A DNA stretch of 64,000 nucleotides from Deuterostichococcus epilithicus (Eukaryota > Chlorophyta > Trebouxiophyceae > Prasiolales > Stichococcaceae). Within the stretch, counting starts at the first letter, position 1; each line of letters begins with the position of its first letter. This document shows positions 1 to 64,000 of this stretch, piece by piece. The stretch spans positions 682,001-746,000 of the forward strand of contig JAVTLE010000017.1 in assembly GCA_033439295.1 (NCBI GenBank). The letters run 5' to 3'. Both the position numbers and the translations under genes were made by a program. The notes below the pieces were generated by a model. It worked only from the letters and a program-made list of their open reading frames with translations, had not been told where the DNA came from and made no database searches.

Positions 1-3000
1 GCTCGATGTTGATGGTGGAGGTGTTTGTGGACAGGATGGCGTCCTTGCGGCAGGCCTTTTCCAGGTCCGCAAAGATTGACTGCTTCACCGGCACATTCTG
101 CGCAGCAGAGGTGGGATGGGGTCATGAAACATGGCCTTGGTCAACGGGATCACGTCCGTTCAGCATGCCTTTCCCAGGTCTGCAAAGGTAGACTGTGTTA
201 CGAGGACATGTTGCAGTTGCACTGGAAATGAGGTCGAGTCCAGGCGTCAGGGGATTATATGACGCCGCCTGCTTGCGTCAGCCTTTTCCAGTTCCAGGTC
301 CACCAAAAACAACAGCTTCATTGTCACGTTCCGCGAACAACTGCAACTGCACATGGCTGGCGTATCGAGATGTGCTTCGTGTGTCATGGGAAGGGGCTAG
401 GCAGATGGTGCCCTGCAGCTGGACCGTCCAGATCCGAAACTATGGACTGCGTCAGCGTTTTCTGCAGACACAAGATCCATCAACCACGCCTGCCAGAAGT
501 TTTTGGGCACTAGGACATGCTGAACAGCGTCTCTTGCGGAAGTTGTGTTAAATGAGCAGCTGCCGGCTTTCATCCCTCAATTCGCCTCCTGTGGGCCTTG
601 GGACAGCCTGCAGTAGTCACCTCGACGGCGGCCTCGATGACGAGGTCCACCTTCTGGAAGTCGTCGTATGTGACCGCGCCGGTCAGCCGCCCAGCCGCCG
701 CCTTGGCTGCCGCCTCCGGCAGCCGCCCCTTCTTCACGAACGTCTGCAGGTTGCCCTGGATGCGCTTGATGCCGGCCTGCGCAGTGATGGTGGAAGGTGG
801 ACCTGAGCGTGCTCAGCAGGTGCTTGTCTGCATTCTGAGGTCACCAGCATGCGCCCTGGTGGTGGCCTGCATGATTATCACATCTCAGCCCACATGGTCA
901 GTCGCAGCAGAAGCTGTCTGCCGCAAAGACTGCCCGTCTTCAGAAGGTAGAGCGCTTCGAGCTGAAATACGTTCTGACTTGAGCGACAACCGTCAAAGAA
1001 AGAATGCTTTGACTATGGCTCTTCATCTGAGAAGCCATTGAAGGAACACGCTGCTCTGAGAGCTGTCTGCACAAAGCCGCAAATCGGTGTGTTCCTGCAA
1101 CGTGCCGCGTTTGGCAAGGGCCACGCACTGACAGAATCTGTTCGCTGGGCATGTGTACCGTGACCGCCCCTGATAAGGGCATATTAATGCAGATGTGGAC
1201 GGCGAAGCTGCGCATGAGCGCAAGCATGCATCACCGACACCGCCGTGCATCAATCTTGAACCTTGGGGCAAGTGAGAGCGGCCGGGCATCTTAAGTCGAG
1301 AAGGTTCTGGTTGACATCCTTCAGCACGATGTCTATGGCGATCAGCACAGGGCCTCACTTGGATCCGGCTACATATACAGGGGCTGGATGGTTCCAGGAT
1401 CTTACGTCGAGGAACTTCTGGTTGATCTCCTTCAGCACCACGTCCATGCCGGCGACCAGCGAGGCGGTCGCGATGCCGGAGCCCATCAGGCCGCCGCCGA
1501 GCACCGCCACTGTCTTGATGGGCCGCGCCTTGAGGCTGCCGTCGGTGATACCCTTCACCTGCGGTGGTTGTGAAGGACAACAGATGTCCAATAAAGAGGA
1601 TGGATGTGGGGATGACACAGACTCTGTAATGCAAAACATCGTTCCTGGCAGCAGCTCATCAGCCTGGCAGAGACTGGTGCGGTGGCATACGACTTCTGGA
1701 GTAGCACGCGACGCCACAGCGCGGACGTGCATGCTGCGCAAGGGGCGCATCACCACGACCCAGTCTGCAGACTCTGGGCATCTCAGCAGGTCAGGTGACA
1801 GGGGTGCGGCATTGATGAGTGCCTCTGTCTCAGAGGCGCTCTGATATCTAGGCAGGGGAGTATGCTAGTGTGCAGGGGCCTGCTGGTGAGACATATAACC
1901 TGTTGATCCAGGTGCACACCCTCTGCAAGCAGCGGCTGCAGGCACGTACCTTCGGGTAGGTGCATGCATGCAAGCTACTGGAGGAGGTCGTCAAGAATGA
2001 CAACTGAAAGGTGGTCAAGGACAGATCTATTCGGATAGTTCGCGCACCCGCTGCGTGGAGCGGCTGGCTAGGAAGGTCCACACCAGCGCCTTGTGCACCG
2101 GCAGCGACGCCGCCTTGACGAAGCACTCTGCCTCCTGCGGCAACTCGTGTGGGAGCATTGGGACCATGTGCTGGCAGATGACGCGCATTGGATGCGCAGA
2201 GCACCGGCAGCGCCTCGAGCTGGACAGGGCCCTCCGCCTCCCACATGTGGCATTTGTGACAAGGCATTCAGGGATCGCGGGTTCAGCAGGGCTCGTCCAC
2301 ACGCTGCGGCTTTGCTGCGCAGGCATATCCGTGCGGACTGTAGTGCCGCCCGAAACCCATTGCAGACGCAGCGTGATGCCTGCGCTATCGCGACCCTCGT
2401 TGCCTCACCACCCCAAGCTCCAGATGTCTTGCCCTCCGACAAGGCACCCTGCAGAGTTGCCAGCCACCTTCTGCAGGCCGGCGCAACCGCCAGCCGCAAT
2501 GCCTGAAGCAATCACGTCCGGGTACAGCTGCGGAAGCGCCAGGGCCGCTCCATCAAAAATCTGAGATGGTGATGGTGATGAGGTTGGTGAAGCCCCAAAA
2601 GCCCACCTTCTGCAGGCCTGCGTGGCCGCCGGCAGCGATGCCGGCTGCGATTGCGTCCAGGCACAGCTGCGGGTGCGCCAGCCCCCGGGCCTGCTTGGCC
2701 GCCTGCTGTCGCGCCATGTCCACAACGGCGCTCGCGATCCCAAACTCCTCCAGGCGGTCGGTGCGCGTCAGGCTCTGCACGTACCGCACAGTAGATAGGG
2801 TTTTAGTTTGCATTTCAGTTGGAGGAAGGCGAGAAGGGTCCGTCTTGCCTAATCAGCAGAGAAGGACCGCCTCCTCGACTGCGCCAGCAGCGCGCTGGCA
2901 CAGCCGCCAACAGACTGCACTGCGTCCATTGAGGGCGCTCACTGCAAGCGGTCGCTGCGGCATGTGCTGTGCCGACCCATGCGCATGGCATGTTCACGCC

Positions 3001-5005
3001 CTCCATGCAGCCGCATCGAGGATCAATGCGGCTTCCTGGAGGCTCACACCATGAGCCCAGGTGAAGATGCTGACGCATGAGCCAGCCTGCCAGGGAAGCC
3101 ACGTGTCAGGGCAGAGCTGTGACCATGTGTCTTGATGCGATGCAAAAGGTTGTGCACCTGCATCCGCGGCTTTGTGCCGGCAGCGAGCGCCAGCGCGAGC
3201 GTGCGGGCGGCATCCAGTAATCTGCAAGACGGTGGGCAGCATATGCTCAGAACAAGACATGCGGCGGGTAAAGCATGCGGGCTCAGCGCAGGTTCCTGTG
3301 TTGCTGTGTTGCATGCACTAGCCGTGATGCGCACACGGAGAGTGCAGTCCAGGGGGCAGTGCGCACTACCCGGTGACTGTACGCCCCCGACACCATGGTC
3401 AACGAGCACCAACGAGCTCTCGATCATATGGGCTCAAACTGTTTGACCAGAACCCAGTTTGTAGCCTGCTCGCCTGCTGTGTCAGCCACAGCGTCTACGA
3501 GGAGTTGCTCCGACGCCTGTTGCCGAAAACGGTGCAAATTTGCGGAAATCCTTGTCGTCCAAAAACGCATGTCATAACTGCCGGTCCTCGCTACGGCGTC
3601 GACGAGGCCTGCCTGCCTGGTAGCGCCTGCTTGCCTGAGATAGGCACTCCTGCAGTTTCTTTTTGGTGGATCCGATGAAAAACACAAAGCACACCTGTCA
3701 GCGTCAGCCACAGCGTCCACAAGACCGGCCTTCAGGGCCTCCTTGCCGGAGATGGGCTTGGACGTCAGCATCATGCGCGCTGCTGCCTCAACGCCCACGA
3801 GCCGCGGCAGCCGCTGTGTGCCGCCAAAGCCAGGGATGATGCCTGCGGAGGGGACAACAATTGTAGGAATGGGTTGCTGCGCAGCACAATCGCAGGGTCA
3901 GACCTGGCACCGTTGTGGGGTGCGCTCGTCAGAAGTACCTGGCACCCCGAGGACACTGAAGCAGCTGCTTCCGCATGCTCCGGCAGCATAGAAGCAAGTT
4001 GGGCAGGCGACCACAGACTGGATGTCCGAATCCACTTGTCCCTTCAATGACACCGCACAGTAGCCAGCAACAGACTGGGCGAGCTACACACCCAGCTGCA
4101 GCTCTGGCAGGCCCATCTTCGCATCAGGCGCCGCCACCCGCGCATTGCACGCCATGGCCAGCTCGCAGCCGCCGCCCAGGGCCACGCCCGTCACCGCTGC
4201 AGGGTTGATTCCGACACAAGCATCTGATGCAAGTCGGTTCAGGCGGATGGCGTCACGGCGGCGGCACCGGCGCCGGCACACAGATAGGGTGCATCTTTGC
4301 GCAGGCGCCTGGTGAAAACTCTGTAGGTGCTCAGCAGGTTGCTCGCCATTCAGGGTGTGGAACATGTTTGTCAGAGCATCTTTGACACAGCCGTTTTCAA
4401 GCTGGGGCATGACCAACCAGTCGCATGACGCCGCCGTGACCCCTAACGCCTTGCATCATGCATGAAATGTTGTCAAGCTAGCACATAACACAGTGCTAGG
4501 CCTGCATCACCTGCAACGGTGGGCTTGGGGCCAGACTCCACGAGGCCGTTGAACTTCTCATTGACGCTGCCGTCCAGCGGCGCGCCCGCCGCAAATGACT
4601 TGATGTCCGCACCCGCCGAAAAGTTTTTGCCGGCGCCTGTCAGCACGATGGCTTGCACGCCATCGTCCGCGTGCGCGGCACGCAGGCAGTCGAAGAGGCT
4701 GGACAGCACTGCGGCCGCCAGAACAGTTGACCCACATCAACCCGATGTGCTGAGTCAGCACCGAGCAGTCACATAGTTTCTTCAGGCTGCGCGCCCTTAT
4801 GGAAGCAAGCATGGGTGCTTGATGTCGTAGTGAACCAATAGCAAGTTGCAATAGTGCGTTTTGGTTACAGCCGCAAGTAGGACAAGGTATGCGATGTCTT
4901 GTCTGGGTGCGGCAACGAACCTGCAGCGCCGAGTGCGTTGACCGGTGGGCTGGCAAGGGTAATGACGGCCACACCATCAGCGTTCTTCTGTAGGTTGCAC
5001 GCCAT
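1..5005 (-). CDS. MFP2: Peroxisomal fatty-acid beta-oxidation multifunctional protein (enoyl-CoA hydratase / 3-hydroxyacyl-CoA dehydrogenase), 3' part missing
   Basis: Plant MFP2/AIM1-type enzyme that hydrates 2-enoyl-CoA and then oxidises the 3-hydroxyacyl-CoA in peroxisomes. Exons in transcript order: 4921-5005, 4511-4708, 4092-4196, 3695-3842, 3158-3221, 2607-2774, 2048-2134, 1406-1558, 621-776, 97 to the edge. All phases agree, giving 420 codons so far. The ATG at 5005 follows an in-frame TAG in the leader. The hydratase half shows the oxyanion-hole stretch [10 protein letters not shown] and both catalytic glutamates ([10 protein letters not shown] and LPELQLG), followed by [12 protein letters not shown]. 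The linker has [13 protein letters not shown] and [14 protein letters not shown]. The dehydrogenase half has the NAD-binding loop [12 protein letters not shown] and the conserved [21 protein letters not shown]. The rest of the dehydrogenase and any C-terminal peroxisomal signal lie outside the window. Several introns contain decayed copies of exon edges. Family assignment is secure. Confidence 0.95.
1270..1470 (-). repeat. Tandem junction duplication at the 3' end of the MFP2 153-base exon
   Basis: The last 60 bases or so of the exon 1406-1558 (coding [12 protein letters not shown]) recur, diverged, about 113 bases downstream in the transcript, at roughly 1291-1350. The copy lies in the intron and is not needed for the reading frame. 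Confidence 0.7.
2450..2690 (-). repeat. Tandem junction duplication at the 3' end of an MFP2 linker exon
   Basis: The exon end at 2607-2690 (coding [22 protein letters not shown]) has a second copy at about 2456-2548 in the following intron, still readable as [21 protein letters not shown]. The offset is about 145 bases. Only the 2607-2774 copy keeps the phase of the flanking exons. Confidence 0.75.
3479..3745 (-). repeat. Three tandem copies of the donor-side edge of the fourth MFP2 exon
   Basis: The exon end coding [12 protein letters not shown] at 3695-3745 is followed in the intron by two decayed copies, near 3583-3640 and 3479-3540, about 104-112 bases apart. Each still reads partly as LVDAVA on the minus strand. 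Confidence 0.75.
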
Positions 5006-5395
5006 GTCGGCTGCTATGACTGTCTGCTATCTAGTGACGACACCTCCTGGCAGCGACTCGGGCCAACCGGTTGGAAGAGGACCGCTGTAGCCGATGTAGC
5101 TCCAGATAGAACAGCAGTTGGACTGTCACGAGATGGTGGCAATCGAGAAGCACAAAAGCTGGGCTGATGTCCTGATGAGTTACGTGGGCTTCAAGGAAGC
5201 TAGCCGGCCTACTGCTGGAGAGTCCTGAGTCTTGTTGAGTGTACACATTTCCTGCACAGGTTGCTCTCACATCTCATGAACGTATTCTTCCCCCCGAGAC
5301 GTGAATATCCTCCCGACACCAGGAACGCCATCAGCTGTGAAACCACCAGTCGGCACGCATCGTGATGCTGCTGACGCCGCACAGGACCGCCGGCC
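5006..5395. other. Intergenic spacer, MFP2 5' flank and polymerase 3' flank
   Basis: About 390 bases between the polymerase stop and the MFP2 ATG, both genes on the minus strand. It must hold the polymerase 3' UTR and the MFP2 promoter. No TATA box, RNA gene or long open frame was recognised. Confidence 0.5.
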
Positions 5396-8300
5396 TCATG
5401 GCACATCAAGCGGTTGCATGCTGCCCCATCGGCGGCCGCACTCCAGGCTCACCCGCAGCGGCACCGCCAGCTGCGCCGCGCCTACAGCACACACGACGTC
5501 CGTCTCAGACCTGATGTTGACCTGCTGCTGCTTGACGTGCTCCTTGGAAGGAATGTACATGTGCGTGAGAAGCATGCGGTTGGACGGACAGGGCAGTACA
5601 AGCACAAGTGAGACTGTATCCTGCAGCCCGGCTTCGTGAGCGTGTGCAGGCTCAGGTAATGGGTGACAAACGTGATGGCCGACCTGTCAGAGGCTGCATG
5701 TAAAAGTCAGCTGAGCAAGACCCTGAAGCCTTCGCCACACTGACCTTCCATGGTGGCCCTGACAGCCGAAGCGACATCAGGCAGCCGCGGCTCAGGCACC
5801 TCGAACAGCAGCTCGTCGTGGATTTGCGCCAGGAGGCGCGCACACGGCAGCCCTGTAGCACCGGCAGATTGATGAGGAATCAGTAAATTACTGACGGCAG
5901 CCCGGCAGCCCCTCGAACAGGCAGTTCGCAGATAGGCTTGCCCCAGCAGCCACGCCAGCGGCTAACAATCATTTTTTCAACTGTTAGGTTGCTGGCAGGC
6001 CTGCTTCTTGCAGTCAGAACCGATTGCACAGGTCTGGCAGACCGAGAACCCTAATACCGCGCCAAAGTCAGGAGACCAGCCCGCAGTCGCACGGCACGTA
6101 GTAGTAACATTGATCGCTTGAAGCGCTGCCGCCACAGTGCAAGCAAAATGGCCGCCGAGTTTGCAGCCGCCCAGCCTGTGGCGAGCGCAGAGCAGCCCAC
6201 CATCTGCCACAGTCGCAGGCCACGCAGGCCATACGCACATGCAGAGCACATTGGGTGCTCGCTCCGTATACAAGGGATTTAGAGGGATTGATTAGTTTCT
6301 ATGTTCCAGCACAGCTTAAGAAACTATAGGTTAGTACTAGTTCATCAAATCATTGCAGATTCAACTATACAGAGCCCCAGCGCCAGTCGGCGACGCACCT
6401 GCGGCGGCCTCCGCCATGGCATGCTGCGACCAAGCCACCATGGCTGCCTTGATGATGTCCGCCGCGCTGCCCTGTAGCAAGTTTTGCATCACAGTCGATT
6501 CGACATCGCTCGGTTGCATCACGCGCACTGAAGCGGCTGAACCAGCGCATCAGCAGTCAAACCGGCAGCATGCATTTTGGTAGCATCGAGCGCTTCAGCA
6601 CGCTGCTGCAGTGCCAGTCTGCGATCACCGGCCCTGAAACGAGCAGCACCGGTGAGGCTCTGTCCGTGCTTCGGCGAATTTAAAACCTAGTCGCACCTGC
6701 ACTACGCTGTTGACCGCCTTGCGCTCCGCTTCCGCTGCTTCCCTGCATGATACAGGACTGGCGTGCTCAGCCCAGCCCAATCTGGATCAGCTGTCGCACC
6801 CTGGTGTGCGCCTCCGCAGGTCTGTTTGGCGCCTGATGCCCAAGCACAGAGAATTTGGTGGGCCTTCCATTCATTGCCATCGCCGGTGCGAAGAGTTCCG
6901 TCCCAGTGCGCTCAGAACATCCTATCGACCGTCCTCTCAACCGCTCTTCGAAAGGACCCCGCCTGCTGTCGGACGAGTGGATGCCCTTGAGCGGCCGGCG
7001 GCGGCCGCTGATGGTGTGCACCTCGCCGCCCAAGTGCGCCGCCCTCTTGGTCGTCTCGATGAATCGCGACACCTGCTGCCAAACCCACTGCTTCATGGCA
7101 TCGGCCACAACAGCACGATGGAGGGTCTTGCGATTGCCGCTGCGTCTGCCCGCGTGAAGTCACTGGCAATGCCACAGAGGCCGAGCGGCGCCCATTGGCG
7201 TTGGCCCAGGCCCAGACAGTTGTTGCCGGGGACATCAGCTACATGTTGCAGAGAACACTCGCAGGAAAGGGGCGGGGCGGCATCCGGGCGGAAAGCTTAC
7301 GCCAAATGTAAACTACCAGACACTGCTGTCCGCGTGGCCGCATGTCTTTCGACGGGCATGGCTACGGAGACATGCGGGATTGCACTCCGAAATCCGTGCA
7401 GAACGATGGGCTGAGTCTGTAACGCCGGCGCCCAGCTGCTGCGCCAGGCCAGGCGGCTCGCAGCCACGCGTGTCGGACACGCGCACATCTTTCTTGCTCT
7501 AACTCTTCAGCTGTGAGCGCTTCTGGTTTCTGGGGGCGCGGTCCCGGGGGCGCACCCCGGGAAAGCCCGCGAGGAAGGACGAGATGAGGCGCTGCGCGTC
7601 CGCCACGCACACGCCCAGCTGCTGCGCCAGGCCCGGCGGCCCGCGGCCGTAGATGACGCTGTAGACGCAGGCCTTGGCCTTACTCCGCTCGGCGGAGCTG
7701 ACCGCCTCCGGCGCGCCTACACGACGGGGAGAAGGGAGCATGATGGGTGTGGCCTGCCAGTGAACAGTTTTGCAAGGAAATTATCAGGCCCCAGCTGCAG
7801 CAACCCGCTGTAGACGCAGGCTCTGGCCCTGGAGCGGTCAGCGGGGCTGACTGCTTCTGGCGCGCCTGCAGCGGGAGGAAAGAAGGAATGTGATTTCCCC
7901 CGGCTTTTTGAGTGCCCAAGGGCACAACTGCAGCCCCACGGCTGCTGTTTGGATGCAGTCTGGCCGCCGTGCAGCCAGACCGTGGTGATCATGCGGAACA
8001 CGCCGCACATGGAAGCAAGGTCCGCGATGGGTGACGCTGTCGCCGTGCAGCCAGGTGGCATTGTTGACCACATGCAAGCAGAAGACGCGCGGTCGCCGCC
8101 GTGCAGCCAGGCAGATGCGATCACGGCTGTGTTTACGCCGTGTAGGCAAGGGCGCCTCAGCAGGCCGCCCAGCAAGTGGGTTTGGAAAGTAAAAGGGCGC
8201 ACAGGCGCCGCCGTGCAGCCAGGCAGACGCGATCAGGCGGAACACGTCGCCCGCGGTGCCGCCGCGGCCTAGCAGCTGCCGCAGCCGACCGTCACCGCTC

Positions 8301-11300
8301 AGGTGCGCCAGCACGCGCAGCTCGACCTGGGAGTAGTCGGCTGCAAGCAGCACGCAGCCTGCAGCAGACAAAATTCGAATTAGGATGCATATTGGTCGCC
8401 GCTCTACTGATTGCCAGTAGCCGGGGGGGCGCAGCTGGACCTGGGAGTGCTCGGCTGCCAGCAGCGCACAACCTGCAGCGGATGGCAGTGGAGGTCTGTG
8501 TGTTAGGGGAGCCGTCGAGTGTCGCCCTTCATGTGTAGGCCGTTGCCGATGACAAGCAGCCTGCCGCGACGGGGAATAGGTGCAAGATGAAGCCGTGCAG
8601 ATGCGTGCCGCCAGCAGTCTGCAATCTGAGGCGGCAGGGAAGAAGCATCACGCTAGGGCTGAAGGCCTGCTCACTGATGTGCGCATAGTGCTCGATTGTG
8701 TTTCGGAAGGTTGGTGTTGATGTCCATAGTGGCAATGCACAATGTAAGCTCGAAGTTGAGCTCTGCTGTCGAGTGTGCTGTATGTTCCGGCTAGGCAGGC
8801 GGCGCCCTGCACGCAATCTTCCCACGCGACGCCTCCCAGAGCACAGTGGCCCGGGTCCAGAGCGCTGTGGGGAGACTGCCACGAAATTGCACACCAGGAG
8901 TGCAGCCTTTGCTGCAGCGCTGCGCTGCAGAAAAGTCACCGCCACGGGCGTCGCGCATGATGACCCGCGCCAGCGCCAGAGCAGCCCATGCTGGCCGTGC
9001 GCAACAGAGAAGACAAGCCGCACGCGAGGTCCAGCAGTGATAATCTGCAGTGCCAGAGTGCTGTGCAGCAGGAGAACAGCTCACCAGGGGCCGCCACGAA
9101 GGCGTCGCGCACGTTGACGCGCGCCAGCGCCGGCAGCGCCAGCTGACTGATCGCATCGTCCCCCTCCTCGCCTGCTGCCCCGCCCACGCCACCCTCCTCG
9201 CCGAGCTTGTACTTGGTTACCGCCTGCGACACAATGTACAGAAGATGTGTTTGCGGAGCACGCTGCATCAGCAGCTGTGGGGGAGCAAGGGTTGGGCGTG
9301 GCAGCACCAGCTGGCTGAGCGCATCCTCCCCTGACCATGACTTTCCCCTCGCCTCCGCCCTCACATTCACCCAGCTTGTATTGAGCATTTGCCTGTAAAG
9401 CACCAAGTAACACCAGAATCTATTTTCAGTTACACGTGCCAGTTGCATGTAGACTGAGCGCGTCAACCCAATACTTCGCCTCTCATATTGCCTCGCCACG
9501 GCCGCTGCCGTCGCTGGGTCCCTCGCCTTTCCCGGCTTGCAGATTCATCACTGCGCATGCAAGGCGTTTGTGGCAGAAGCTACGTACACGTTGCGGCAGT
9601 ACTTCACATGCCACGAGCCTGCCTTGCTAGTTTGGGTACTGGCCACGTCCTCAAGTCGGCACTTCACTAGTGGTGCAGCAACCGGCGCACTACGTTTTTT
9701 GAATCTTGTGGTTTCGAAACACATCCGTGAAGAGTGAAGGACATCAGACCTTCGAGGGCGGGGCTTGCACCTGGAGGTTGGGTATAGTGCAGGACAGGCG
9801 GCCGGTTGCCACAGCAGTCTGCTGCCAGCGGCACCGCACTCGGGTCGTGAGACCGCCGCCGCCGCCGCCGCCGCCGTCCGCCGCCTCTCGCATGGCCGCA
9901 ACCGCCCACGTCGGCTGCACGTACTTGGTCAGCACGTTCTGCAAGAAGCGCGGCACCGCTCCTCATTCCCGGTGGGGACCTCTGGACATTGAGATGGCTG
10001 CGCGGCACACAGCTGCGGCATCCGTCAGGCAGCCGAGCGGTGCCGGTCGCAGGATATCGAGGAGTTACAATGCTGCGGCCTGACTGAGGGTCCCGAGGTG
10101 AGGTCTGCACATCCGAAAGACATATTAGAGCAACCAAATTGTGATGGCAGCATGCATAGGTACGGACAGGCAGTGCAAACAAGTATGCTAGCCTTCAATG
10201 CGGTGGCCAAACCTGCATGGCACGAAACTCTAACACAAGCGCCGGCAGCGGACACGCCACGTTCTGGTCCAAGAACTTCAGCGCTGCCACATCGGTCGGC
10301 ACATGTGTCTTGGCCTGCGACCTGCATGCATGCTCATATTCCGCTGGCAGTTGCAGTTGGCATCAAGACTTCTGCATCATCAGGCAGCTGTGATAGTCTT
10401 TGTGAAAGGAGCCTCAGTTACCCCTTGCAGCTCGTTCACAACTGCATCTTGCACGGCACTGCAGGCTGTGCATGCGGCAGCGGCATGAAAGCTGCATGCG
10501 GCACTTCCCGCACGAAAGCGGCGCAGCAGCCGTCGGCAGGGCTGCAGGGGCCCACCTGCCGGGCCGCTCCGGCGGCGGCGGCAGCTGCAGGTCCGTGTAC
10601 AGCGCCTCGGACAGCTGCGTGGGCGACGCCAGCTTGAAGGGGCGGCCCACCAGGCGGTGCGCCTCCGCCTACCATACGGGAGGTTGGGTTCAGTGGATTG
10701 GAAGAGGAGTTCAGCATTGGTCAAGTAACGAACAAGCGACCATCTGGAATGGGCGGCCCACCAGGCGGTGCGCCTCCGCCTGGGTGGTTTGAATTCCATT
10801 TCAGCAGCTGTGAATTGAGATGGTAGTTCAGCCTGGACACGTGTCGAAGCAGAAACCAGCTCGAAGCGCGGTCCCCAGTAAGCGGTTCGCATCCGCCTGC
10901 CGGGCACATGGGTCAGGGACTGAGGATGAGGATGGCGCACGTCGAAAGGGCAGAGGTTTGCCGCAGCTTGACAAGTGATGCAAGGGAATATAGGATCGGA
11001 GCATTGCGACACTGCAGTCGGGTGGGGGCTGCTGCAAAGCAGCATCCTAGGTCATGGTGTCGGCTGGAGCCATTGCGCCAGGCTGGAATGTGGACCCGCT
11101 CCCACTGAGACACGCTCGTTGTGCGTGCCATCAAACACAATCTGCACAGGTCGATGCAGTGCCCAGTGTTACATGGCGTCCATGCAGCTGCGCCATGCAC
11201 TGTGTCGCACCTCAATGGCGGCGCAGCGCTGCTCCAGCGCCGAGGCGTGGCCCTGCAGCACGCCCGGCTCAAAGCCTGCACAATCACCAAATTGCTTTCA

Positions 11301-16380: not shown

Positions 16381-16442
<62 letters not shown>

Positions 16443-51831: not shown

Positions 51832-52807
51832 TGCCCCCGCCGGCGACTTACACCATGGTAGCTTTTCGCGCTTTGTGGTGCACAATGTTGCCGAGCCAGA
51901 GCAACTTCGGTTTGTGTCCAGTCAGACATGCAGCGAGTCCGGCTCAGCAGCACTGTCAGTTGCAACGCTGACTGCTGGTGGCAGCTGGGCAGGAAATTGA
52001 GTCTGTGAATCGATTCGTGCCTGAAAACACACGGATTCTCGAAATTACGGTGACACCAATGCTGCAGCCACTGATTTACCCTTCCTCAATCCTGTTCCTG
52101 GGTTCCTATTCTTTCCTGTTTTTTTTCCCTGTTTTCCCGAGCTTTCGGCCCCCCAAGCATCTGCCAAAGCTGTAGCTGGCGCAGGGGATCTACATCCAAC
52201 ATTTGCCTTTGCTTTCCACGGCATTACATCTCAGGCTCAGCGAAGTATCTATGAGCAGCTGGTGGAGAGTTAGCAATAAAGCTGAAATATATAGCGAGGG
52301 TCCGGGCCGGACCGTCCGGCGGAAAGCGGCAAAATTTCTGTAGGGAGGGCAAGCCGCTAGGCCGAGGGTCAAAGCTGGGTCGCCGTGTGTGCGCAAGGGC
52401 TGGCACGGAACATTGGCCATGACTAGCAGTAGCCATGTTTGGCGTCAAGGGCAGCGGTGCATGGCGGGGCGGCGCGCCATCCACGATAGCCAGTGAGCGC
52501 CGCCGCTGCCACGAGGCGAGCGGCGGGCCGGGCCAGCGCTTGGCGTAGCCTGCCTGCGCGGCAAGGGTATGTGGCCCAGACTTGGACCAGGTAACTCTGC
52601 TGGCTTGCGTCTGGGAATTGCAGGGAGCCTATTGCGCTCCCTGATATACCCTACGCTTCTCCCACCCTCGGAACTCTTCTCCCTCACGTGACACAGGCTT
52701 CATCACAAGCCAGCATAACTGAAGCTTTCGGTTGTCTACGACCGTCTCTCGACGTTGTAATTCAATCTCGCACGCGCTCAGCATCTCGCGTCGGTGAGCC
52801 ATCCAAG
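51832..52807. other. Spacer between TMEM205-like and ABM genes
   Basis: About 975 bases in a head-to-tail arrangement, holding a 3' UTR and a promoter. There is a T-rich tract near 52105-52140 and a GC-rich palindrome, CCGGACCGTCCGG, near 52307-52320. No gene was recognised. Confidence 0.45.
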
Positions 52808-55707
52808 ATGCGTTCAGCGACATTCGCCCTGCTGCTGGTCGCCCTCGCTGCCGTCGGCGCTTCTGCACGCCCCTTCGACATCGAAGAGTGGCCTAAGGAC
52901 ATTTTGAGCGCCATCAAGGTGAGAACTCGCATTCCAAGGGAAGCCTCTGCTTCTTATCGCAGCTGCACCTGACGCTGAAGAACGCGGAAACCATAGGTGC
53001 AGGCCTGTGGTTTGTTGTATTGGTCACTCACGATGTCTCTGATGTATATGAAGAACCTTTGTATTCTTTTGAGCGATGTCGTGCAGCGCACGAGGCCAAA
53101 AACTGCTGCAAACTCCTGGCTGCCCATAGCGGCCATTGATGCGCATGCAGCACATCGAGAAATGTAAGTGAGCACGGCCAACAGGACGAATGTCTGATTA
53201 CAGTTCCACATATCTGTGTTTGACAATGCTAATCGCATGTTGCTTCCAGGGTTCTGGCATCAGCGGACGCGATGTCAATGCGGACTTGCCTCGTCGCCAC
53301 CTTCTCATGTCAGAAGAAGAGGAGAAGTGTGTACCTTCGCTTGTTACCCATTGGCAATTGTGTCAACATTTGGCTGCGCCTATGCAGTATCATCTTTATC
53401 TGCAGCGCGGTGCACATATGTAAATCAACCGCTCACCATCAGCTCGACGGAGCTCACTGTGGACGAAATCTGCCTGCCGCAGCAGAGACTCACCAGTACC
53501 TCAGTCATCCAATTCGTGTCCCTGCTGTCGCACTGAGCTGGCACTGCTGCTGCAGGTTTGTGGTCCTCGCCCGCTTCGATGTGAAGCCATCGCTGGCGAC
53601 CAAATTCGAAGAGCTTTGGTGCAAAGTAAGTGTGCTGAGCATGCGAGCTTGACACGACTGGAGGATCGTCGTTTCCTGCTGCACGATCACAACAGGTCAT
53701 CATAGGCATTTGTTCCTTCAAAAGCCTTCAAACCGGTGCACAGCTCAAGGAGGAGGCGGAGCAGCAGGAGGGCCTCATGCGCTTCGGCATTGCCAAGACA
53801 CTGACCGACAACCGCCAGTTCCTGGCCTACGAGGTAAGAGATCCAGGGAAGAGGCTTTCACACCTGCCTACAGGTGCATTCTGGAGCAGGCGTGGGCGGC
53901 ACCCAAAAAGGCGTGAGCGTCGAGTGCATTCATGCTTCACGCTCGACCTTGTTTGTCGAAATCATGCGGGTTTCTTGCTCGATGGGCAGGAGTGGGAGAG
54001 CAAACAAGCTTTCAAGAAGCACCTACAGAAAAAGGATTCCGCTTGCTTGCAAAAAGCTTGAGAAATATGTCGAGGTGCGACAGAGAGCGACAAGGCAGTT
54101 GATGAGAATATGCACAGCACGGTTATGGCTGTGTCTCTCCGCATATGCAACGCCAATGTGTCCCTGGCTACTTTCTTCCAATCAGCGCAGGGTTTGGCTT
54201 GATGTGATTGGTTAATGCACACAGGAGCACAATATTGGCGCCACCATGACTCGTCTGGTCTCCCGCGCTTCCACCAGCAGCAGCACTGACGCCCGCATGC
54301 AGGTGACTCCTGTCTTTGGCGTTCGTTCTATGGAATGTCAGCTGATTGGCAATTATGCCTCAGCAATGCCGACTGTTCGTGATGCATGCTGCTGCTAGCT
54401 GCATCTAGATTGCAGTTCTCACCTGATGCGATGATAGCCAGAGGCGCCGCCCTGCTGTCAGGGCAACTCAACTCGCTGATGCACGCCCCTCTCCGTCAAA
54501 TTTGACAACGTGACATTTTGCTCGCATGCAGTTGGGGGCCATGAACCCTGTGCTACGCAACACAATTGATGCCGACGTCTATGCGCACGCAAGTGCTGCC
54601 GTATCAGAGGCGCGAGTCCATGCAAATGATTCTAGATTGTTCAACCGAACTAACCACCATGTGCATGCGGAGGCAAGTCTACCTGTAGACATTACCTGGT
54701 CACGGTGATGAGAGGATGCTGCACTGCTTTCAAATGTTATGACCGGCGCTGATGCCTGATGTCGTCGTGTTTGTTGCGCCTGCAGAAGTGGGTGGTCGTG
54801 CCAGACGGCGAGAAAGAGAACAAAGCTGTTGTCCTGGTCCGCTTCGCGGTCCGCCCGTCCCTGCTGGTATGCCTTACCTGTCCGCCGCAGTCCCTTGCCA
54901 TTATACATCACATCGTCGGCAAGTCTTCAACTTGCGGCACTGGTTCCCTTGAGCTGCTGCTCATTCACGTACGAGGAACGAGCTTGCCCCGCATGCTCTT
55001 CTTGCAGGACGAGTTTGCGAGCGTCGCCCAGGAGCTCACTGAGAACGTGTCTGCTTCGGAGGGTGATAAAAACCTCGTGCTGTCCTTTGCTAAAGACGCC
55101 CTCGACGACTTTACGGTGCGCCCAGCCACATATCACATTCGTTGAACGGATAGTGTCAGAAGGTAGGCATGATACATTCTTCGCTGATGGTATCAGTCTG
55201 AAAAAGTTGGCGGTGGTGTGTGTCGCAGGTCTACGGTTATGGCGGTATGTACATTACTATCTCGTAGTTCCTGATATGGTTGCTGACAGCTTGCAGATCG
55301 CCTTGTAGATGTCTGCCATGCGATGGGCGAGTTGTTGTAACTGCGTGCTTGACGTACATGAAACTGTCGTGCTGCAGAGTGGAAGAACCGCCAGGTGACC
55401 TTGCGGTTTTTCCATTCCGTCCTGCCACGCGTGCAATTTACGTTGTTGCGCAGACCCCCGCCCACGGCCAAGCATGTTCAAGCAAGCTTATTGACAGCAT
55501 ATATCCCCTTTTCTGTTCCTTCTGAAAAACGTGGACAACAACATATATACCTATTGTGCGGGGTCTGCCTCGCCAGGCACTGGAGGAGCACCTGCAGAGC
55601 GACTGCTTCAAACAATTCCGCTCCTTTGCCATGAGCCACGACATCTTTGCCAAGAAGACCATGCTCAAGCCCATTTTCAACATGTCTTCTGACTGCTCGG
55701 AGGAGTG
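52808..55707 (+). CDS. Secreted protein with two ABM-type (antibiotic biosynthesis monooxygenase fold) domains
   Basis: The ATG at 52808 begins a clear signal peptide (ATFALLLVALAAVGASA, cleavage near residue 20). Exons: 52808-52918, 53250-53326, 53556-53625, 53744-53833, from 53990, about 54225-54302, about 54531, about 54786, 55009-55113, a short VYGYG exon near 55231, EWKNRQ near 55379, and the last from about 55577 to TGA 55705-55707. Domain 1 reads FVVLARFDVKPSLATKFEELW, GIAKTLTDNRQFLAYE and EWESKQAFKKHL. Domain 2 reads VVLVRFAVRPSLLDEFASVAQ, EWKNRQALEEHLQSDCFKQF. Both follow the ABM order of beta strand, helix and the E-W-x-x-x-x-A-x-x-x-H-L signature. ABM proteins include small oxygenases and haem-degrading enzymes; the substrate is unknown. 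The exon starting 53990 has no clear GT donor before an in-frame stop, so that border is unsure. Confidence 0.85.
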
Positions 55708-56271
55708 ATCCGCATCTGTCCGCAATATGAGACACATTTTGCCCGATGCCGCAAAGTGGTGTAAGAGGTTGGCCGTGTTCTCAGGCGAGATCAAGTGCCG
55801 GCAGAGTTGGAGGAACTGTGATCCGAGTCTGCCATAATTTATTGCATAGTATCAAGCTACTTCACTTGCGCTTTTGAGGGACATTGTCGCGCGCATCGTC
55901 GCAGCGAGCACAACTGTACATGGCTGGTGCCCATGCACGGCGGGGTCTCAAGGGTACGATGCGACAGAGCAAGAGCCCTGCAAGGCGACAATGGCAGTAC
56001 CTCTCACCGTGTCAACCATGAGGCCCACCAGCCAACATGAGGACGAACCCCTGCGACTGCTCGGACGGCGGGGCCGGGCCCGCCGTTGTCGCACCAACAC
56101 CAGGCGTCGTGAAGCGCTGCTGATCCACAGCTGGCTGCATGCGAGCACCATAGTGCTCGCAGGCGGGCCACAGCGCTGGTGGTGTTGCTGCAGCTGTGCT
56201 GTTTAACAGCGGACTGTGTGGCGGTCGTCAGATGCGTGACTTCTAAAGGTCGTTATAAAATAATAAGCCCC
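55708..56271. other. Convergent spacer, 3' ends of ABM gene and hypothetical minus gene
   Basis: About 560 bases with no recognised gene. It contains only short unsupported open frames. Confidence 0.45.
55760..55764 (+). terminator. Possible TGTAA polyadenylation signal for the ABM gene
   Basis: TGTAA, the usual chlorophyte polyadenylation signal, lies 53 bases after the ABM stop codon. The motif is short, so it could be chance. Confidence 0.35.
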
Positions 56272-57487: not shown

Positions 57488-60400
57488 ATGTCCGCCAAAA
57501 GCGAGACGAGCGAAGCGATGCGCCGCTTCAGCAGCGCGGGCAGCCAGATCTTGCAGATGGTCATGGTGCGTGCTCGACTGCCTATTCAACTCTCAGTCCT
57601 TTGGATGTCCGTGGGTCGAGCTTCGGAGGTGGCACGGCTGCTTGCGGCGGATGCCTTGCACTGGGCCGCTGCCGGCAGGCTGCAGAGGAATGCACATCAC
57701 CATGCACGTCGCTGAATGTGCCATGGCGTCGACTGCTGCTGCAATTTTGCAGGTGGTAAGCCGCTTCCAGGAGCTGGTGCGGCTCGCAGGGGAGGCGTAC
57801 ATTGATCCTGCCCAGCTTACCCGGGTGAGCGCCCACATGTTTGGCCCTGACTATGGGGGAAAGTGCCAGCGTGCCGCGGTGGGATCAGGAGGGCGGGGCC
57901 TACCATAGACCACATGAAAGGATTAGCAACGAAACGCAGCGCACAGCGCCTGCGGTGCCTTGGTCAGCAGGCTTAGCTGTCTCAGCGAGACCCTGCCAGC
58001 AGCCTCAGTACCTGGCATTGTATCGCCCACCCCCGCTGCCCGAGCTTGCGTCCAGAGTCAACCTTGTCGACACCTCCTCGTGAGGCACGCCCACACTTCC
58101 TTGATGCAATTCGAACCTGCAAGGCATTCGTGGCTGATATATGCAAGGCTTTTTGGGCCAATGGCGCCTCTGTTCGCTGAAGATGCGGATTTGGGTGTAG
58201 GCATCACTGCGACAGTGGTGCACTGCAAGATGAATCTGAGTGAGAGAGGGAGAGGAGGGAGAGGAGGGAGAGAGAAAGAAACATTTTTGAACAACACCTC
58301 ACGTTTGTTCTCCTGCTTCAGGTGCGGGATCTGGGAGAGGGCGCCTTTGCAAAGGTGGTGCACTGCAAGCTGAAGCGGCCGGGGGAGCCGGACATGGATG
58401 TGGCGGTGAAGCTCCTGAAGCCGGCGCTCTTCAATTCCGACCTGGACGTGTCCGACTTTGTGAAGGAGGGCATCGTGCTCAAGCGCATGCGCCACTCGTG
58501 CGTCCTTTGCTTTGCATTGTGGGAAAAAGTTCTCTCTTGACCCGCTGTGTTGCTGGTCCGGCTGCTTGCGCAGCTGAAGTCCCATGCACCGCAGAGGAAG
58601 GAGCTGCGCTCAGGCGCCCGCGCCGCTCAGGCATATGTGTGTCGCCCTGCTGCTGCACTCCTTGCCACCAAGCTTCTGGCAGCTCCCCCGGCAGCCTGTG
58701 ATCTATCAGGATGTCAGCAGTTTCACCAGTGGGACGCTGCGGCCTTCCCGCAGGTCGGTGGTGCAGACCGTGGGGCAAGGCTGCAGGGGCGTGGATGGCG
58801 GCATCGAATGACTCTGTATTCAGCACCGCTGCTTTCCTTCCCACGGATCGGTGGTGCGGAATTGGGTTCCAAGATCGCGGACGGCGGCCGTGGTGCCAAC
58901 CATCAACAGCCTGTCCATCCTTCAAGCACGCCATGTTTCAGGTCATTTGTGCCTGCAGGTCGGTGGTTCGCGTGGTGGGGCTGGGCTTCAAAAGCGCAGA
59001 CGGCGGCCGCGGCGCGAGCCCCGACAGCCTGTTCATCGTGCAGGAGCTTTGCCTCGGCGGGGCGCTGCGGGACACCGTCGCCGCGCAGATGTTCCGGCCC
59101 CGCGAGGTGAGCCAGTGGCAACACATTGTGCGGCTCTGCCGTTCCTTTTCATCGCTTGCTGCACGCGAGCGCAGCGCAAAGTCAGCGCAAAGTCGTCGCC
59201 GCCCACGTGTTTTGCCCCTGCGAGGTGCGGGAGTGACGTCAGGTGGCACGGCGGGGCGGAAGCAGGGTGACGGGTCTGTGTGACACATGAGATTCCGCTT
59301 GTTGCAGGCGGGCGCCGGGCCCGCGTGCGGCCGTGCCAGCCCCTGATCACCTGTCTCGGCCCCACGACACAGGGGAGGGGGGGGGGNGGTGAGCATGGCA
59401 GGTTGCCGTCCGGCTGGCTTTGTTGGGGTGGCGGAGGGCGGGACTGAGGGCGGCCTTGCTGGGCTGCTGCTGAAGTGTGCCATGCACAGCCTTGGCGCGC
59501 CTGCTCCTGAGGCGGTGCTGCGAGCCAGGCGTGCCGCAGCGGACGCCAGCAGTCCGTGCGCCGCAGGGCGTGGGCGCCTTGCGAGCACGAGGACGGAGGC
59601 ACGTCCTGAGTACACAGACGAGATCTATCTGATCCCCAAACCGTTCTTGACGCAGGTGCTGTACCGCTACGAGGACGGCATGCGGTGGGCGCTGCAGATC
59701 GCCTCCGGGCTGGCGCACCTGCACGCGGCGCGGCCTACCATCATCCACCGCGACCTGAAACTGGACAACGTCCTGCTGACCGGTGCGCGACCGCAAGAAA
59801 AGCAGGCAACGCGTTGCATGCCCAATGTGAGTTTTCCCGGGGTCCTCACCTGAAGCGCGCCTTCACGCAGCGCGATTGACCGCCGTCCGCCGCCAACTAA
59901 CATGGACGATGTCCTGCTCACGGGGGCCGTCCACGGGAATGACTTGTCTTCATCCGGAGAAACAATGTAATCATCCGTTCAAGCTGAGGTCCCTCGGACG
60001 TGGCCCATCAATCGTCCACTGCGACCTGAAGCTCGACAACGTGCTGTTCACGGCTGCGCGCCGGTCAGAATCGTGGCTATTCTGTATTCTGCGCCGTGGC
60101 GGTGTCTCCAACGTGCTTCCAGATCTCTTTGTGAAGTCACTGAAGGTAGATGATGCCATCATTTCTCGTGACCTTTCGTGGTCATGGTCCCTCGCTCATG
60201 CTCACGCACCAAGTCTGTGGCTGAAGCAACAGCGCCGCCGCTCTCAACGAATTCGCGGCATCTGCGTGGGGCTTCGCGGCATGCAAGCCTGGGCTCTTGC
60301 ACCTGCCTCGCGACAGCATGCCTGCAGTCTGCAAATGATGGTGCGCCGACGCAGGCGCGCGGCGGCAGCGTGAACGCAGGCGCGCGGTGGCAGCGTGAAC

Positions 60401-63400
60401 CGACAGCCGCCCTCGGCTCTGGCCGATCACGACGGTGTGCGGGGCCGCTGAACTTGTGCTACCGATACAACTGTGTCGCCAACAGGCAACTGGCCGATGC
60501 ACGCAGGCAGCAGCGCGGCCTACGAAGCCAAGATCGCGGACTTCGGGCTGCATGCCACGGTGGAGGCAACGGAACGCTCCGAGTCCGTCAAGCAGCTGTG
60601 CGTCCCCGAAACCCTCCACCTCCCCCTCCACCCCTCACACCCTACCCCCTCCCACCTCCAAGCCACATCTTGAGCTGCGCTGCTAGTGGCATGCCAGTCC
60701 GCTTGCCGGAAGGACCCTGGCACCCCCAGTCCGTATCTCGGCCAGGCTGCTCACTGCTTGTGCTGCCGCGGGTTGAGGCATTGCACGACGCCAGCGACAC
60801 CGGCCCCGGCGTCGATACACAAGACAGCCTGCTGTCCGTGCGCCGCGAGCGGTACCTGTGACACGGCGCTCGACACCAGGCGGAAGGCCCGGCAGCGCTG
60901 CCTACCGCCCATCTGGAACGTGGCTCCTGCTGGAGCCGCCAGCACGGCCGGCCGCAGCCACACTGAGGTGTGGCTCCTCGCGCTGCGGCCGGCCGGCCTG
61001 CGCTGCGGCTCCGGCGCCACAGCAGCCGGCGCGACCGGTGCGATGTGCCACGAGCCCTGCCGCGGCGGCGGCCCAGCCGCCCGCTGCGCGGCCTGCCGCT
61101 CCCAGCCGGCCGCCTGCAGGCGACCATTGGCGTCACGCCTCGGTTGCCATGCAAGCTGCCTCGTGCACTGGCATGCTGCAGGCCCCGCACACACAAAGCC
61201 CATCCCTGGGCGCCCGCCCAGCGTCAGCCGGCCCACAGCCAGTCAGCCCCCCGGCCCACCGCTCGCCGCAGGCGCACCGGCTGTGCGTGCTTGCGTGGCG
61301 TTTGGGCTGCCGGGCTACACTGGCCCCGGCAGCGCAAGGCATCCTCGCGAGTCCTGGAGCAAGGCCTGAACTAGCGTGCCACACGGCAAGCCGACCTGAA
61401 CAGCGCAAATTTTCTGGTTGCAGGAAGCGGCAGCTGACCAAGCAGACGGAGGCGGAGCGGAGCCGCCTCGCCGACGACTCTGTGGTTCGGCAGCTTGATT
61501 CCACGATGATCCACATGCCGGCGTCACGGCCCAAGGGGCCATCCAGGTAACCTGCCCCAAGCTTGTTCCATTGTGACCAACAGGTTTCCTTTGGCGGTTG
61601 CCCGGCGCTGCGGCAGCTGAATATGTGTCATGATCCACATGCTGGCGTCGCGGCCCAAGGGGTCCAGGCGAGCTGTCTGACTCCTTTCCTGCAGGTTTGT
61701 TGGCAATATTGAACCCTTAGAGCAATGCGGCAGCTGTTTTCTGCCATGCGCAGCGGTCAGCGCCTGCAGCGGCCCGCCCTCAAGCGGCTCCCTGTTGATG
61801 AATGCTGCTGCGGGCAGCGCATCTTCGGGGGAAGCTTGCAGCATGTGGATAACTTAACTGAGTTCACAAGTGCTGGCAGGGCAGTCAGGCTGGGATGCGG
61901 CAGACCAGCCAGCGCAGCGCGGAGGACACTGGCAAGCACAGCTTCCTCATGCTTTTCCAACCACAGTCGAGGCTTCAATTGTTCATGCAAACTTCCTACG
62001 TGCCCGCAGGGCGGTCAGCTTTGCGACGCAGCACGCCAGTCAGCGCTCGGCAGAGGACGCCAGCTCGCACAGCTCCCTCATGCAGCGCTTCTTCACACTG
62101 CGGAAGAAGGTCAAACCGCGGCACGACCTCACGGGTGCGTTTTTTGTGCTCAAGTAAGCGAACAGTTCTTTACCTGGTGAGCCTCACGCCTGGTCACTCC
62201 TGCCTGCGCCCGCCGGGCACGCTGCAACATGTCACATGTGTCGATCTGGAATTCTCACGTTCAGTGACTAGCTGCCCGCGGTTACTGGGCGGGCAACTTG
62301 TAGCATGCGTGGCGGCGCTCAAGACTCGTTGCAGCCTCCTCTGCCGCCGCTGCTCTGCCGCTGCTGACCACCGACAGGCAATGGACGCTTTTCATGAGAA
62401 TGTGCTCGGCGCATCGCTGTCTGTGTGAGCGGTACCGTCCCTGCTGCAACTGCAGGCCAGACGGGCAGCTTCCTGAACATGGCGCCGGAGGTGGTGTTGG
62501 GGGAGCGGTACAACGAGTCTGCGGTAAGTTTCCACCCATAACTCCCACTTCGACACTCCGACCCCTCGCATGCAACTGCGCTGCGCTTGCCTCGGCGCCT
62601 TTCAACAGCGCTGCGCTGCCGGCAGCTGGCGAGTGGCAGGTTCCAGAGGTGCTGGCGTGCAGTGTCACTGCGGACAGGGCTTGGGCCCTGGCTGAGTGTG
62701 CTCGGGGCAGCTTTCTGCGCAGCCTTCTGCTGAGTCGGCTGCCGAGCCGCATGGGCACCACTTCCCGGCCTGCCGGTTGAGCGTCGACGAGCAGATGAAC
62801 TCGGAATGCGACCGCACCTGCAGGAGACGTCCTCGTTGGCCGTTGTGTTTATTATAAGACATCACCACAGCGGCCGATGGCCTGCCAAATCGCCAGCAGA
62901 CAAGCCCTTCCCTGAGCATGCTCGGTCACCCTGCAGGACCTGTTCTCACTGGCCATCGTGCTGTACGAGATCTTCACGAAGACCATCACCGCGGCGACGG
63001 TCATCGTGCTGGGCACGCCGCATGAGTGCTCCGACTACGCCTTCAAGGTGAGGGTTTAGGGTTTTAGGTTTTAGGTTTTAGGGTTGATAGTGCTCGGCTG
63101 TGCCTTCCAGGTGGAGCACAGCCTGAACCCACAATCACTTCCCCTCTGCGCCACCACGGATGCACCTGCCGCATTCGCGGGCCCGTCCGAGCGCCCGCCC
63201 ACCCAGCGGCGCAGCTCGAACCATCGCTGCCGGCAGCGCAGCTACAGGCGGCGTGTCTGGGCAAGGCGGCAGCCTTGGGGCAAGGCGGCAGCCCTGGCAG
63301 CAAGAGTGCTGAGACTATCTTAACTTGTCCACTCCAACGAGCGGGCATGAAGGTTGCGGGGGCCCAGTCGGCCCCGGCCCACGGGCTGCCAGCGTCAAAC

Positions 63401-64000
63401 CAGTCAGCAAAGTCTGCAGTTGTCGATGGGCGCCTCACCCAGAAGCCGCAGTGCAATGTCTGAACAGACGCACAGACTACATACGTACAAAACAATGCAA
63501 CTGCCACGCAGGTGGCGCGGGGGTACCGGCGGCCCTGCCCCATGAGCTGGCCGCGGGCGCTGTCGGAGCTCATCCAGGACTGCTGGGCACAGGACCCCGA
63601 TAACCGACCCACCGCTGAGCAGGCGTGTCCGGGCTCTTTTGCTGAAGATATATCACCTGATACTATTGCCGATGCATTACATTTATAGCGCCGAGCAGGT
63701 GCGTCCTGGCCGCTTCTGCTGAAAACATCACCTGATCTTCCTCTCTAATGCATTGCATCTGTGGCGGCTGCCGCCTTGCCCCGGCAGCAACTGCCATTGC
63801 AGCGCCCAGGCAGCACATCTGGCAGGCGTAGCGGGGCCGGCAGGGGCGCCCGGGGCTGTGTCCCAGTGCGGGTGCGAGCTGCAGAGGGGGGGCTCGTGCA
63901 GGCTGTGGAGGGCCTCTGCAGCAGTCTGTGGAGCAGCCCCGCTCGCCACCGCGGCCGGCCGCAGTGTCGCGGCTGCGCAAGCTCGAAGTGTGCGGGCTGG
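57488..64000 (+). CDS. Protein kinase B: paralogue of kinase A, C-terminus beyond the window
   Basis: Exons 57488-57565, 57753-57824, 58322-58497, 58959-59106, 59656-59782, 60507-60597, 61424-61546, 62010-62134, 62456-62523, 62937-63047, 63512-63622; 410 codons so far in consistent phase. The order matches kinase A: leader helix VVSRFQELVRLAGEAYIDP, glycine loop LGEGAFAKV, VAVK lysine, SDFVKEGIVL, HRDLKLDN, IADFGLHATVE, LNMAPEVVLG, DLFSLAIVLYEIF and DCWAQDPDNRPTAEQ. All catalytic residues are present. About 108 residues lie between DFG and APE, longer than in kinase A, coded by two exons with basic ends (RKKVKPRHD). Two introns of kinase A are absent here (after its glycine-loop exon and after GGKE), while the activation insert has an extra intron. 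Exons after 63622 were not resolved. A start further upstream cannot be excluded. Confidence 0.92.
58195..58380 (+). repeat. Copy of the glycine-loop exon edge in the preceding intron
   Basis: The exon part coding KVVHCKLK (about 58352-58375) recurs at about 58213-58236 (TVVHCKMNL then stop) in the upstream intron, about 138 bases earlier. Confidence 0.65.
58237..58279 (+). repeat. Purine GGAGAG tract
   Basis: Imperfect repeats of GAGAGG/GGAGAG fill the middle of an intron of kinase B, between the junction copy and the true exon. All-purine on this strand. Confidence 0.85.
58749..59050 (+). repeat. Three copies of the acceptor edge of the kinase B exon coding SVVRVVGLGF
   Basis: The exon at 58959 (SVVRVVGLGFKSADGGRG) is preceded by copies starting near 58757 and 58848. 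Both keep the CAGGTCGGTGGT-like junction or the later GCGGACGGCGGCCG core, but have lost the frame. Confidence 0.75.
59387..59387. other. Ambiguous base in a G-run
   Basis: A single N within a run of G in an intron of kinase B. Confidence 0.9.
59739..60065 (+). repeat. Three copies of the kinase B catalytic-loop exon end
   Basis: The true exon end at 59739-59782 (IIHRDLKLDNVLLTG) is followed in the intron by copies near 59871 and 60003, both about 132 bases apart. The second reads SIVHCDLKLDNVLFTA, with Cys in place of the catalytic-loop Arg. Confidence 0.85.
61488..61680 (+). repeat. Copy of the donor edge of the first activation-insert exon
   Basis: The exon end coding QLDSTMIHMPASRPKGPS (61488-61546) recurs at about 61610-61668 (VMIHMLASRPKGS) in the following intron, about 122 bases on. 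Confidence 0.85.
61880..62125 (+). repeat. Copy of the acceptor edge of the second activation-insert exon
   Basis: The exon 62010-62134 starts RAVSFATQHASQRSAEDASSH. A copy with stops lies at about 61878-61965 (RAVRLGCGRPASAARRTLAS in a shifted frame), about 132 bases upstream. Confidence 0.8.
63051..63084 (+). repeat. Interstitial telomere-type repeat
   Basis: Four or five units alternating between TTTAGGG and TTTTAGG lie in the kinase B intron four bases after the donor at 63048. The mixed unit length resembles both the plant/Chlorella and the Chlamydomonas telomere repeat. Confidence 0.85.
63612..63770 (+). repeat. Copy of the donor edge of the last resolved kinase B exon
   Basis: The junction after TAEQ at 63622 and about 60 intron bases are duplicated about 76 bases later, with the copied GAGCAG at 63693-63698. 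The copy has a GT where the first has GC. Confidence 0.75.

Follow-up and report, generated by a model that had tools for sequence, protein, structure and literature searches.

Introns in a 64-kb stretch of the genome of the green alga Deuterostichococcus epilithicus (contig JAVTLE010000017.1, positions 682,001 to 746,000) carry decayed copies of the exon edges that adjoin them. We think it somewhat more probable than the reverse that recurrent tandem duplication of segments spanning splice junctions has lengthened these existing introns. Under this model, a unit of about 106–181 base pairs (bp) across a splice junction, typically with some 60 bp on the exon side and 70 bp on the intron side, would have been duplicated in tandem repeatedly. 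The copy farther from the exon would leave with the intron, so that the protein would be unchanged and the intron one unit longer. Repeated events would produce a ladder of one to three copies, and the intronic copies would decay while the exon stayed. We infer that tandem duplication was the event in all cases (5 of 30 families show homology on the intron side), that the original splice site is still the one in use, and that selection against coding damage filters the duplications that survive. All analyses concern this one 64-kb stretch (the window), with gene models predicted from codon bias and splice-site weights; three candidate genes (g3, g7b and g10) have no accepted model.

The repeats at splice junctions are real and the signal is strong. 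Self-comparison of the window by BLAST returned 84 direct and 13 inverted pairs no more than 600 bp apart (low-complexity tracts included), a ratio that led us to reject an inverted-repeat or hairpin origin. The low-complexity tracts at 16–17 kb and 33.5–34.2 kb were taken out before repeats were counted. At a score of at least 19, 24 direct pairs were spaced by 100–165 bp, 2 by 166–200 bp, 9 by 201–300 bp, none by 301–600 bp and 1 by 601–1000 bp; the 9 pairs at 201–300 bp agree with the distances of second copies in the families described below. A score of at least 17 gave 25 pairs at 100–165 bp, 23 of which touched a modelled junction (at least 15 exon bases). Rotation of the pairs around the window, skipping those that wrapped round its end, averaged 8.8 such pairs, and 23 was not reached in any of 5000 rotations; the original prediction, made from the sequence alone, that repeats at junctions would exceed a permuted null was thus borne out within the window. 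The remaining two pairs lie on misplaced model ends, where the sequence has an acceptor before 49360 and a donor after 21164, which brings the count to 25 of 25. Wholly noncoding BLAST pairs at 100–165 bp numbered 0, against 13.6 under rotation.

Because BLAST may hide spacings below about 50 bp and merges neighbours, the count was repeated with a BLAST-free ungapped scan (score at least 17). This gave 4 segments at spacings of 10–26 bp, none at 27–50, 2 at 51–99, 33 at 100–165, 2 at 166–200, 9 at 201–300 and 1 at 301–600. The 33 consist of 27 exon-noncoding and 6 noncoding segments. All six of the latter (49236; 7963; 45667 and 45692; 12033 and 12073) belong to families listed below: five pair one copy with another, and the sixth is part of the re-read family at 49355. 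A separate scan of the junctions themselves detected a copy of the exon edge scoring at least 20 at 31 of 190 junctions, where swapped introns gave an expectation of 0.82, and scoring at least 18 at 37 of 190 (2.67 expected). Together with the rotation null, these figures rule out a chance origin. Assembly error is unlikely because the copy blocks differ by 3 to 33%. Junctions without a clear copy showed no further excess of faint ones at 104–165 bp, in distance bins that overlap and are non-independent.

Thirty families were kept from the 37 junctions scoring at least 18. Those dropped were two rows of an "exon" at 45811 that is itself a copy, three weak rows of g8 with spacing above 270 bp and two rows scoring 18.0; two extra families, 49355 and 21164, were recognised by inspection. 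The 30 families involve 30 of 180 junctions on both strands, in 8 of 11 gene models and 27 of 91 introns, which upholds the earlier description of decayed junction copies in many introns, on both sides and both strands. Donors (13 of 91) and acceptors (17 of 89) are affected alike. The nearest copy lies 106–181 bp out (mean 131, standard deviation 18). A range of 105–145 bp had been proposed, and it holds for 25 of the 30 families; the others extend it to the full range given here. The copied exon part, put at 30–90 bases beforehand, measures 20–93 bp (mean 60), and the rest of the unit 36–115 bp (mean 71). Second copies stand at 205–284 bp and a single third copy at 367 bp (score at least 16); ladders therefore reach up to three copies, in keeping with the one to three that had been claimed per intron. 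One case at 25929, formerly described as identical, is instead a near-exact 26-bp tandem repeat (25928–25979) that starts one base inside the donor and includes no exon part. The unit is centred on the junction (mean |x−d/2| of 11.3, P = 0.00025 against uniform placement), although a floor on the intron part together with the detection limit on the exon part could produce the same centring.

Introns with copies are longer. The median is 486 bp for the 27 introns with copies and 311 bp for the 64 without (P = 0.001); three of the 27 are shorter than 150 bp, and copies there had been modelled as exons. Since a copy cannot fit into a short intron, the comparison was also restricted to introns of at least 200 bp, where the medians are 499.5 bp (n = 24) and 334.5 bp (n = 52; P = 0.0003). 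These length differences support that part of the original reading in which copies lengthen introns. Junctions with copies, compared with the rest of the 180, adjoin longer exons (143.5 versus 97.5 bp) that have a higher guanine-plus-cytosine (GC) content (P = 0.015) and a higher codon score (P = 0.001). When the comparison was confined to confident exons (99 junctions), exon length was the sole remaining correlate (146.5 versus 120 bp, P = 0.03).

Matches to Pfam or PDB entries support the reading of g1 as a fatty-acid multifunctional protein, g2 as a family A DNA polymerase, g4 as a bestrophin, g6 and g13 as two protein kinases, g8 as a PH-domain gene, g9 as a MAM33/p32 gene, g11 as a DUF4149 gene and g12 as an ABM-domain gene; g7 is expansin-like, with a match slightly below Pfam's own cut-off. 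Eight of nine submitted proteins built from joined exons without the copies matched a Pfam family, seven of them in a single stretch. Families per junction number 9/37 in g2, 7/23 in g13, 5/17 in g1, 3/10 in g11, 2/23 in g8, 2/11 in g9, 1/10 in g4 and 1/24 in g6, with none in g5 (0/4), g7 (0/9) or g12 (0/12); the difference among the larger models gives a chi-square P of 0.07. The kinase paralogues g6 (25205–29104) and g13 (57753–63626) have, by eye, several intron positions in common. The g6 introns after 25475 and 26248 are absent from g13, and junction copies are much scarcer in g6 (1 of 24 junctions) than in g13 (7 of 23).

On the minus strand, copies of acceptor-side edges were located at 137–214 (exon 1–97, edge 24–101, with more copies at 267–335 and near 401–457), 2201–2241 (exon 2048–2134), 7787–7870 (exon 7556–7716), 8429–8479 (exon 8203–8358, in the family A polymerase gene), 10736–10781 (exon 10556–10662, with intron-side homology that is weaker under other spacer limits and a second copy at distance 228), 12611–12670 (exon 12321–12520) and 39773–39844 (exon 39597–39697). 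Copies of donor-side edges on this strand are at 1288–1346 (exon 1406–1558, edge 1399–1460), 2464–2542 (exon 2607–2774, edge 2603–2681), 3573–3645 (exon 3695–3842, with a second copy, 3468–3501, at junction distance 221), 8086–8127 (exon 8203–8358, with others at distances 168, which is weak, and 244, at 7963–8006) and 12185–12248 (exon 12321–12520; 91%, with intron-side homology and a second copy at 12042–12105). Three alignments stop short of the junction: the donor half of exon 7556–7716 is copied at 7405–7465 (ending 30 bp before it), and exon 9085–9223 has its acceptor half at 9300–9383 (8 bp before) and its donor half at 8939–9003 (6 bp before). The copy at 39069–39173 represents the donor region of exon 39274–39437, mainly its intronic part, and has a second copy at distance 253.

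Plus-strand copies of acceptor-side edges are at 19133–19191 (exon 19266–19372), 45803–45871 (exon 45935–46056 of the MAM33-like gene, with intron-side homology and a second copy at 45667–45723), 49236–49298 (exon start near 49360, the acceptor placed by eye), 49673–49733 (exon 49794–49935), 50436–50492 (exon 50564–50675), 51055–51117 (exon 51183–51327), 58176–58256 (exon 58322–58497 of the kinase gene), 58845–58924 (exon 58959–59106, second copy 58747–58802), 61876–61952 (exon 62010–62134) and 63346–63394 (exon 63512–63626). Donor-side edges are copied at 21233–21289 (exon end near 21164, the donor placed by eye), 45130–45202 (exon 44913–45053), 59194–59227 (exon 58959–59106, with intron-side homology), 59855–59939 (exon 59618–59782, second copy 59995–60060) and 61611–61675 (exon 61424–61546). 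Part of exon 27453–27543 is copied at 27631–27663, in an alignment that stops 11 bp before the donor.

The extent of likeness on the intron side bears on what was copied. The scan covered 8 intron bases; likeness stops 4–8 bases into the intron in 24 of the 37 rows, and in 3 of the 37 an extension past those 8 bases exceeded its null. Ungapped identity is 0.33 at 11–20 intron bases and 0.24–0.28 from 21 onward. Such abrupt ends, and the spacers without homology in 25 of 30 families, would suit copying of the exon edge and splice site alone, in direct orientation and about 60–70 bp away, without the adjoining intron, for example by templated insertion in break repair or through an RNA intermediate. 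We regard this as improbable. Likeness ends where the conserved exon and splice site end, as it would in any decayed junction duplicate, the regular ladder suits tandem units, and intron-side homology is clear in families 45935, 12321 and 39274 and was also seen in 10662 and 59106. Four of these five have z > 2, and 39274 was added via its nearer copy. Three of the five fall among the five least diverged families, compared with two among the remaining 25 (P = 0.022); copying of whole junction-spanning units would be expected to give such a pattern. Whole units were thus probably duplicated, and sequence derived from the intron has probably diverged roughly three to four times faster than that derived from the exon. 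Homology in the spacer would be expected in 5.8 families at a threefold and 3.7 at a fourfold faster divergence, and five were seen. Comparison of two intronic copies with each other likewise shows the exon-derived part to be more alike than the spacer in 9 of 10 families (P = 0.020), with the caveat that the families had been selected by block similarity. Gene conversion from the exon, weak constraint or this selection of families could each underlie the slow divergence of the exon-derived part.

The blocks have diverged by a mean of 20.5%, with 2.5 gaps per 100 bp. Differences by codon position are 0.19, 0.19 and 0.28 (35 rows), and a frameshift or stop is present in 21 of the 30 copies, the other nine staying open in the exon frame; the copies therefore evolve without coding constraint, and for these 21 a role as coding sequence is rejected. 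All 10 multi-copy families have a first copy that is closer to the exon than to the second copy (P = 0.002), and in 8 of the 10 the second copy is closer to the exon than to the first (P = 0.08), which is the pattern that decaying copies around a conserved exon would give. Broken, and closer to the exon than to each other, the copies look like decaying by-products. A contrasting proposal is that the intronic copies are kept because they have a function, for example as splicing enhancers or decoy splice sites, or that gene conversion from the exon renews them. The greater likeness of exon-derived parts than of spacers, even between two intronic copies, fits this proposal, as does family 10662, whose copy has about 90% identity next to a much more diverged spacer. 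Where the alignment of a copy covers the site, AG is retained in 12 of 14 acceptor copies (P = 0.065) and GT in 4 of 9 donor copies (P = 0.20), the latter being no more than neutral decay predicts. We consider maintenance quite improbable, since codon positions carry no signature of constraint and the copies match the exon better than they match one another. The splice dinucleotides of the copies aligned over the site show no significant bias, and thus no significant trace of selection on splicing (donor-acceptor difference, P = 0.07). A loss of GT from donor copies (4 of 13, P = 0.018) was withdrawn because four of the alignments end before the site; without them the count is the 4 of 9 given above.

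Some centring of the repeats on junctions is expected as an effect of visibility, because selection removes duplications within exons and similarity confined to introns is lost sooner. The original prediction had held that random duplication would not centre on junctions, and to that extent it has to be relaxed. Taken to its limit, the argument yields a different account, in which tandem duplication of about 125 bp is uniform across the genome, exonic events have been purged, intronic and intergenic ones have faded, and those spanning junctions are the only ones still visible. With conserved exons, a junction duplicate would fade at about half the rate of an intronic one, and pairs of first and second copies, both intronic, are indeed already less alike. 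Spacers are also less alike than exon-derived copies in the 9 of 10 multi-copy families noted above. The test of this account is the number of purely noncoding duplicates. From the observed family ages, a uniform process predicts 65 if spacers and exon-derived copies diverge at equal rates, 19.4 if spacers diverge twice as fast, 10.7 at threefold (P = 2e-5), 5.9 at fourfold (P = 0.003), 2.6 at about sevenfold (P of none = 0.08) and 1.6 at tenfold (P = 0.19); a separate simulation (r = 0.33) expects 14.7 noncoding cases per 25 at junctions. No independent, purely noncoding tandem duplicate of the size of the junction repeats was found in the window by BLAST, by the BLAST-free scan or by a scan of deep noncoding DNA. 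In the last of these, none of 1513 windows scored at least 18 at 105–160 bp and two reached 16, one of them at the 49236 family, so that weak similarity at this spacing is not elevated. The two highest ratios would accommodate the absence of such duplicates, but the spacer data favour one near three to four, and we judge a uniform process unlikely.

An excess at exon edges is accordingly likely, on the basis of one window, predicted gene models and an assumed decay ratio. Being in excess over a uniform process, it suggests that such events also arise, or persist, most often at exon edges. The original prediction went further, to a process tied to splice junctions; this is not established, given that at about sevenfold or tenfold rates so few noncoding cases would be expected against the zero seen, and junction-directed machinery, R-loops or nucleosomes would be no more than candidate causes. 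It is possible, though we would not expect it, that introns of this lineage grow through a mutational process that acts at or near exon edges and is tied to splicing, transcription or exon chromatin, and that tandem copies of junction-centred segments of about 130 bp built a substantial part of intron length genome-wide. If the junction bias is true, it would point to a mutational mechanism coupled to one of these three.

Several observations weigh against recurrent duplication of junction-spanning units as we have described it. With no independent noncoding duplicate in the window, the process is not simply general. The exon-intron structures are our own predicted models. Twenty-five of 30 families lack intron-side homology, where a neutral simulation expects about 25–27 of 30 to have it, and the five that do are a lenient count, as 10662 has an intron-side z of 6.5 that becomes 1.2 when the spacer limits are set differently. 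The model would further require exon-derived copies to diverge about threefold more slowly than sequence from the intron.

Other features of the window were recorded. GC content is 53–65% in 2-kb steps; it drops to 53–55% at 52001–56000, where g12 is located, with no junction copies at its 12 junctions. A CTG array of 23 units (16382–16451) reads on the minus strand as polyglutamine within a long open frame, an interstitial telomere-like repeat of the AGGGTTT type occupies 63051–63085, and a 25-bp tandem repeat with 96% matching (60349–60400) is among several two-copy repeats of 14–26 bp found by Tandem Repeats Finder. ARAGORN called no transfer RNA within the window. Contig searches gave no usable relatives (viral contigs, one locus, L001; genome contigs, none). 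In GC content, intron number and intron size, the window resembles the lichen alga Asterochloris (PMC6652019).

Intron lengthening is mostly attributed to transposons and random insertions and deletions. In exon duplication that yields mutually exclusive exons, exon sequence is likewise repeated in the adjacent intron. Unlike such exons, the copies described here contain part of an exon alone with one splice site, and most are frameshifted or stopped. They also differ from introners, in which one foreign element is inserted at many sites, some with target-site duplications of 3–9 bp, and which have brought about mass change of introns in algae and other eukaryotes, in some cases tied to nucleosome positions (PMC9860276). 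What has been added here is the edge of the local exon, and no mobile element or introner common to different loci was seen in the spacers (best between-locus scores 12.0–14.5, not calibrated for the number of pairs), in line with the earlier view that the copies are not introner-like.

The closest parallels are duplications that touch an exon and whose added DNA ends up spliced out. In the potato RNA-dependent RNA polymerase (RdRp) gene, a tandem duplication is reported whose unit crosses an intron-exon boundary, the extra DNA being spliced out, as is an 83-bp tandem duplication inside an intron (PMC4974935); single cases of intron growth by tandem duplication are therefore known. A Drosophila study likewise describes a tandem duplication that touches exon sequence, with the extra DNA spliced out (PMC2891723). 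A unit composed of exon edge and adjoining intron, as in potato RdRp, may be reflected in the intron-side homology of five of the 30 families. Birth of introns under the Rogers/AGGT model, in which the spacing equals the intron length and the repeat spans both splice sites, was rejected, as the spacing is 106–181 bp and the introns measure at least 201 bp; the copies of the 30 families lie inside introns of 201 bp and more (search flank limited to about 808 bp). Since the kinase paralogues share intron positions, those introns were probably not made by the copies. Among the matches listed from the open-licence literature, none described intron growth through repeated duplication of junctions. 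With about one junction in six still showing a duplicated exon edge, and each event dated by its conserved exon, the rate, size and bias of duplication-driven intron growth could be measured directly. The process is related to intron gain by tandem duplication and differs from it in outcome and frequency. The known cases considered here made a new intron or added to one, singly or a few at once; in this window, introns already present seem to grow, many times within 64 kb, at both donor and acceptor sides and by units of a narrow size.

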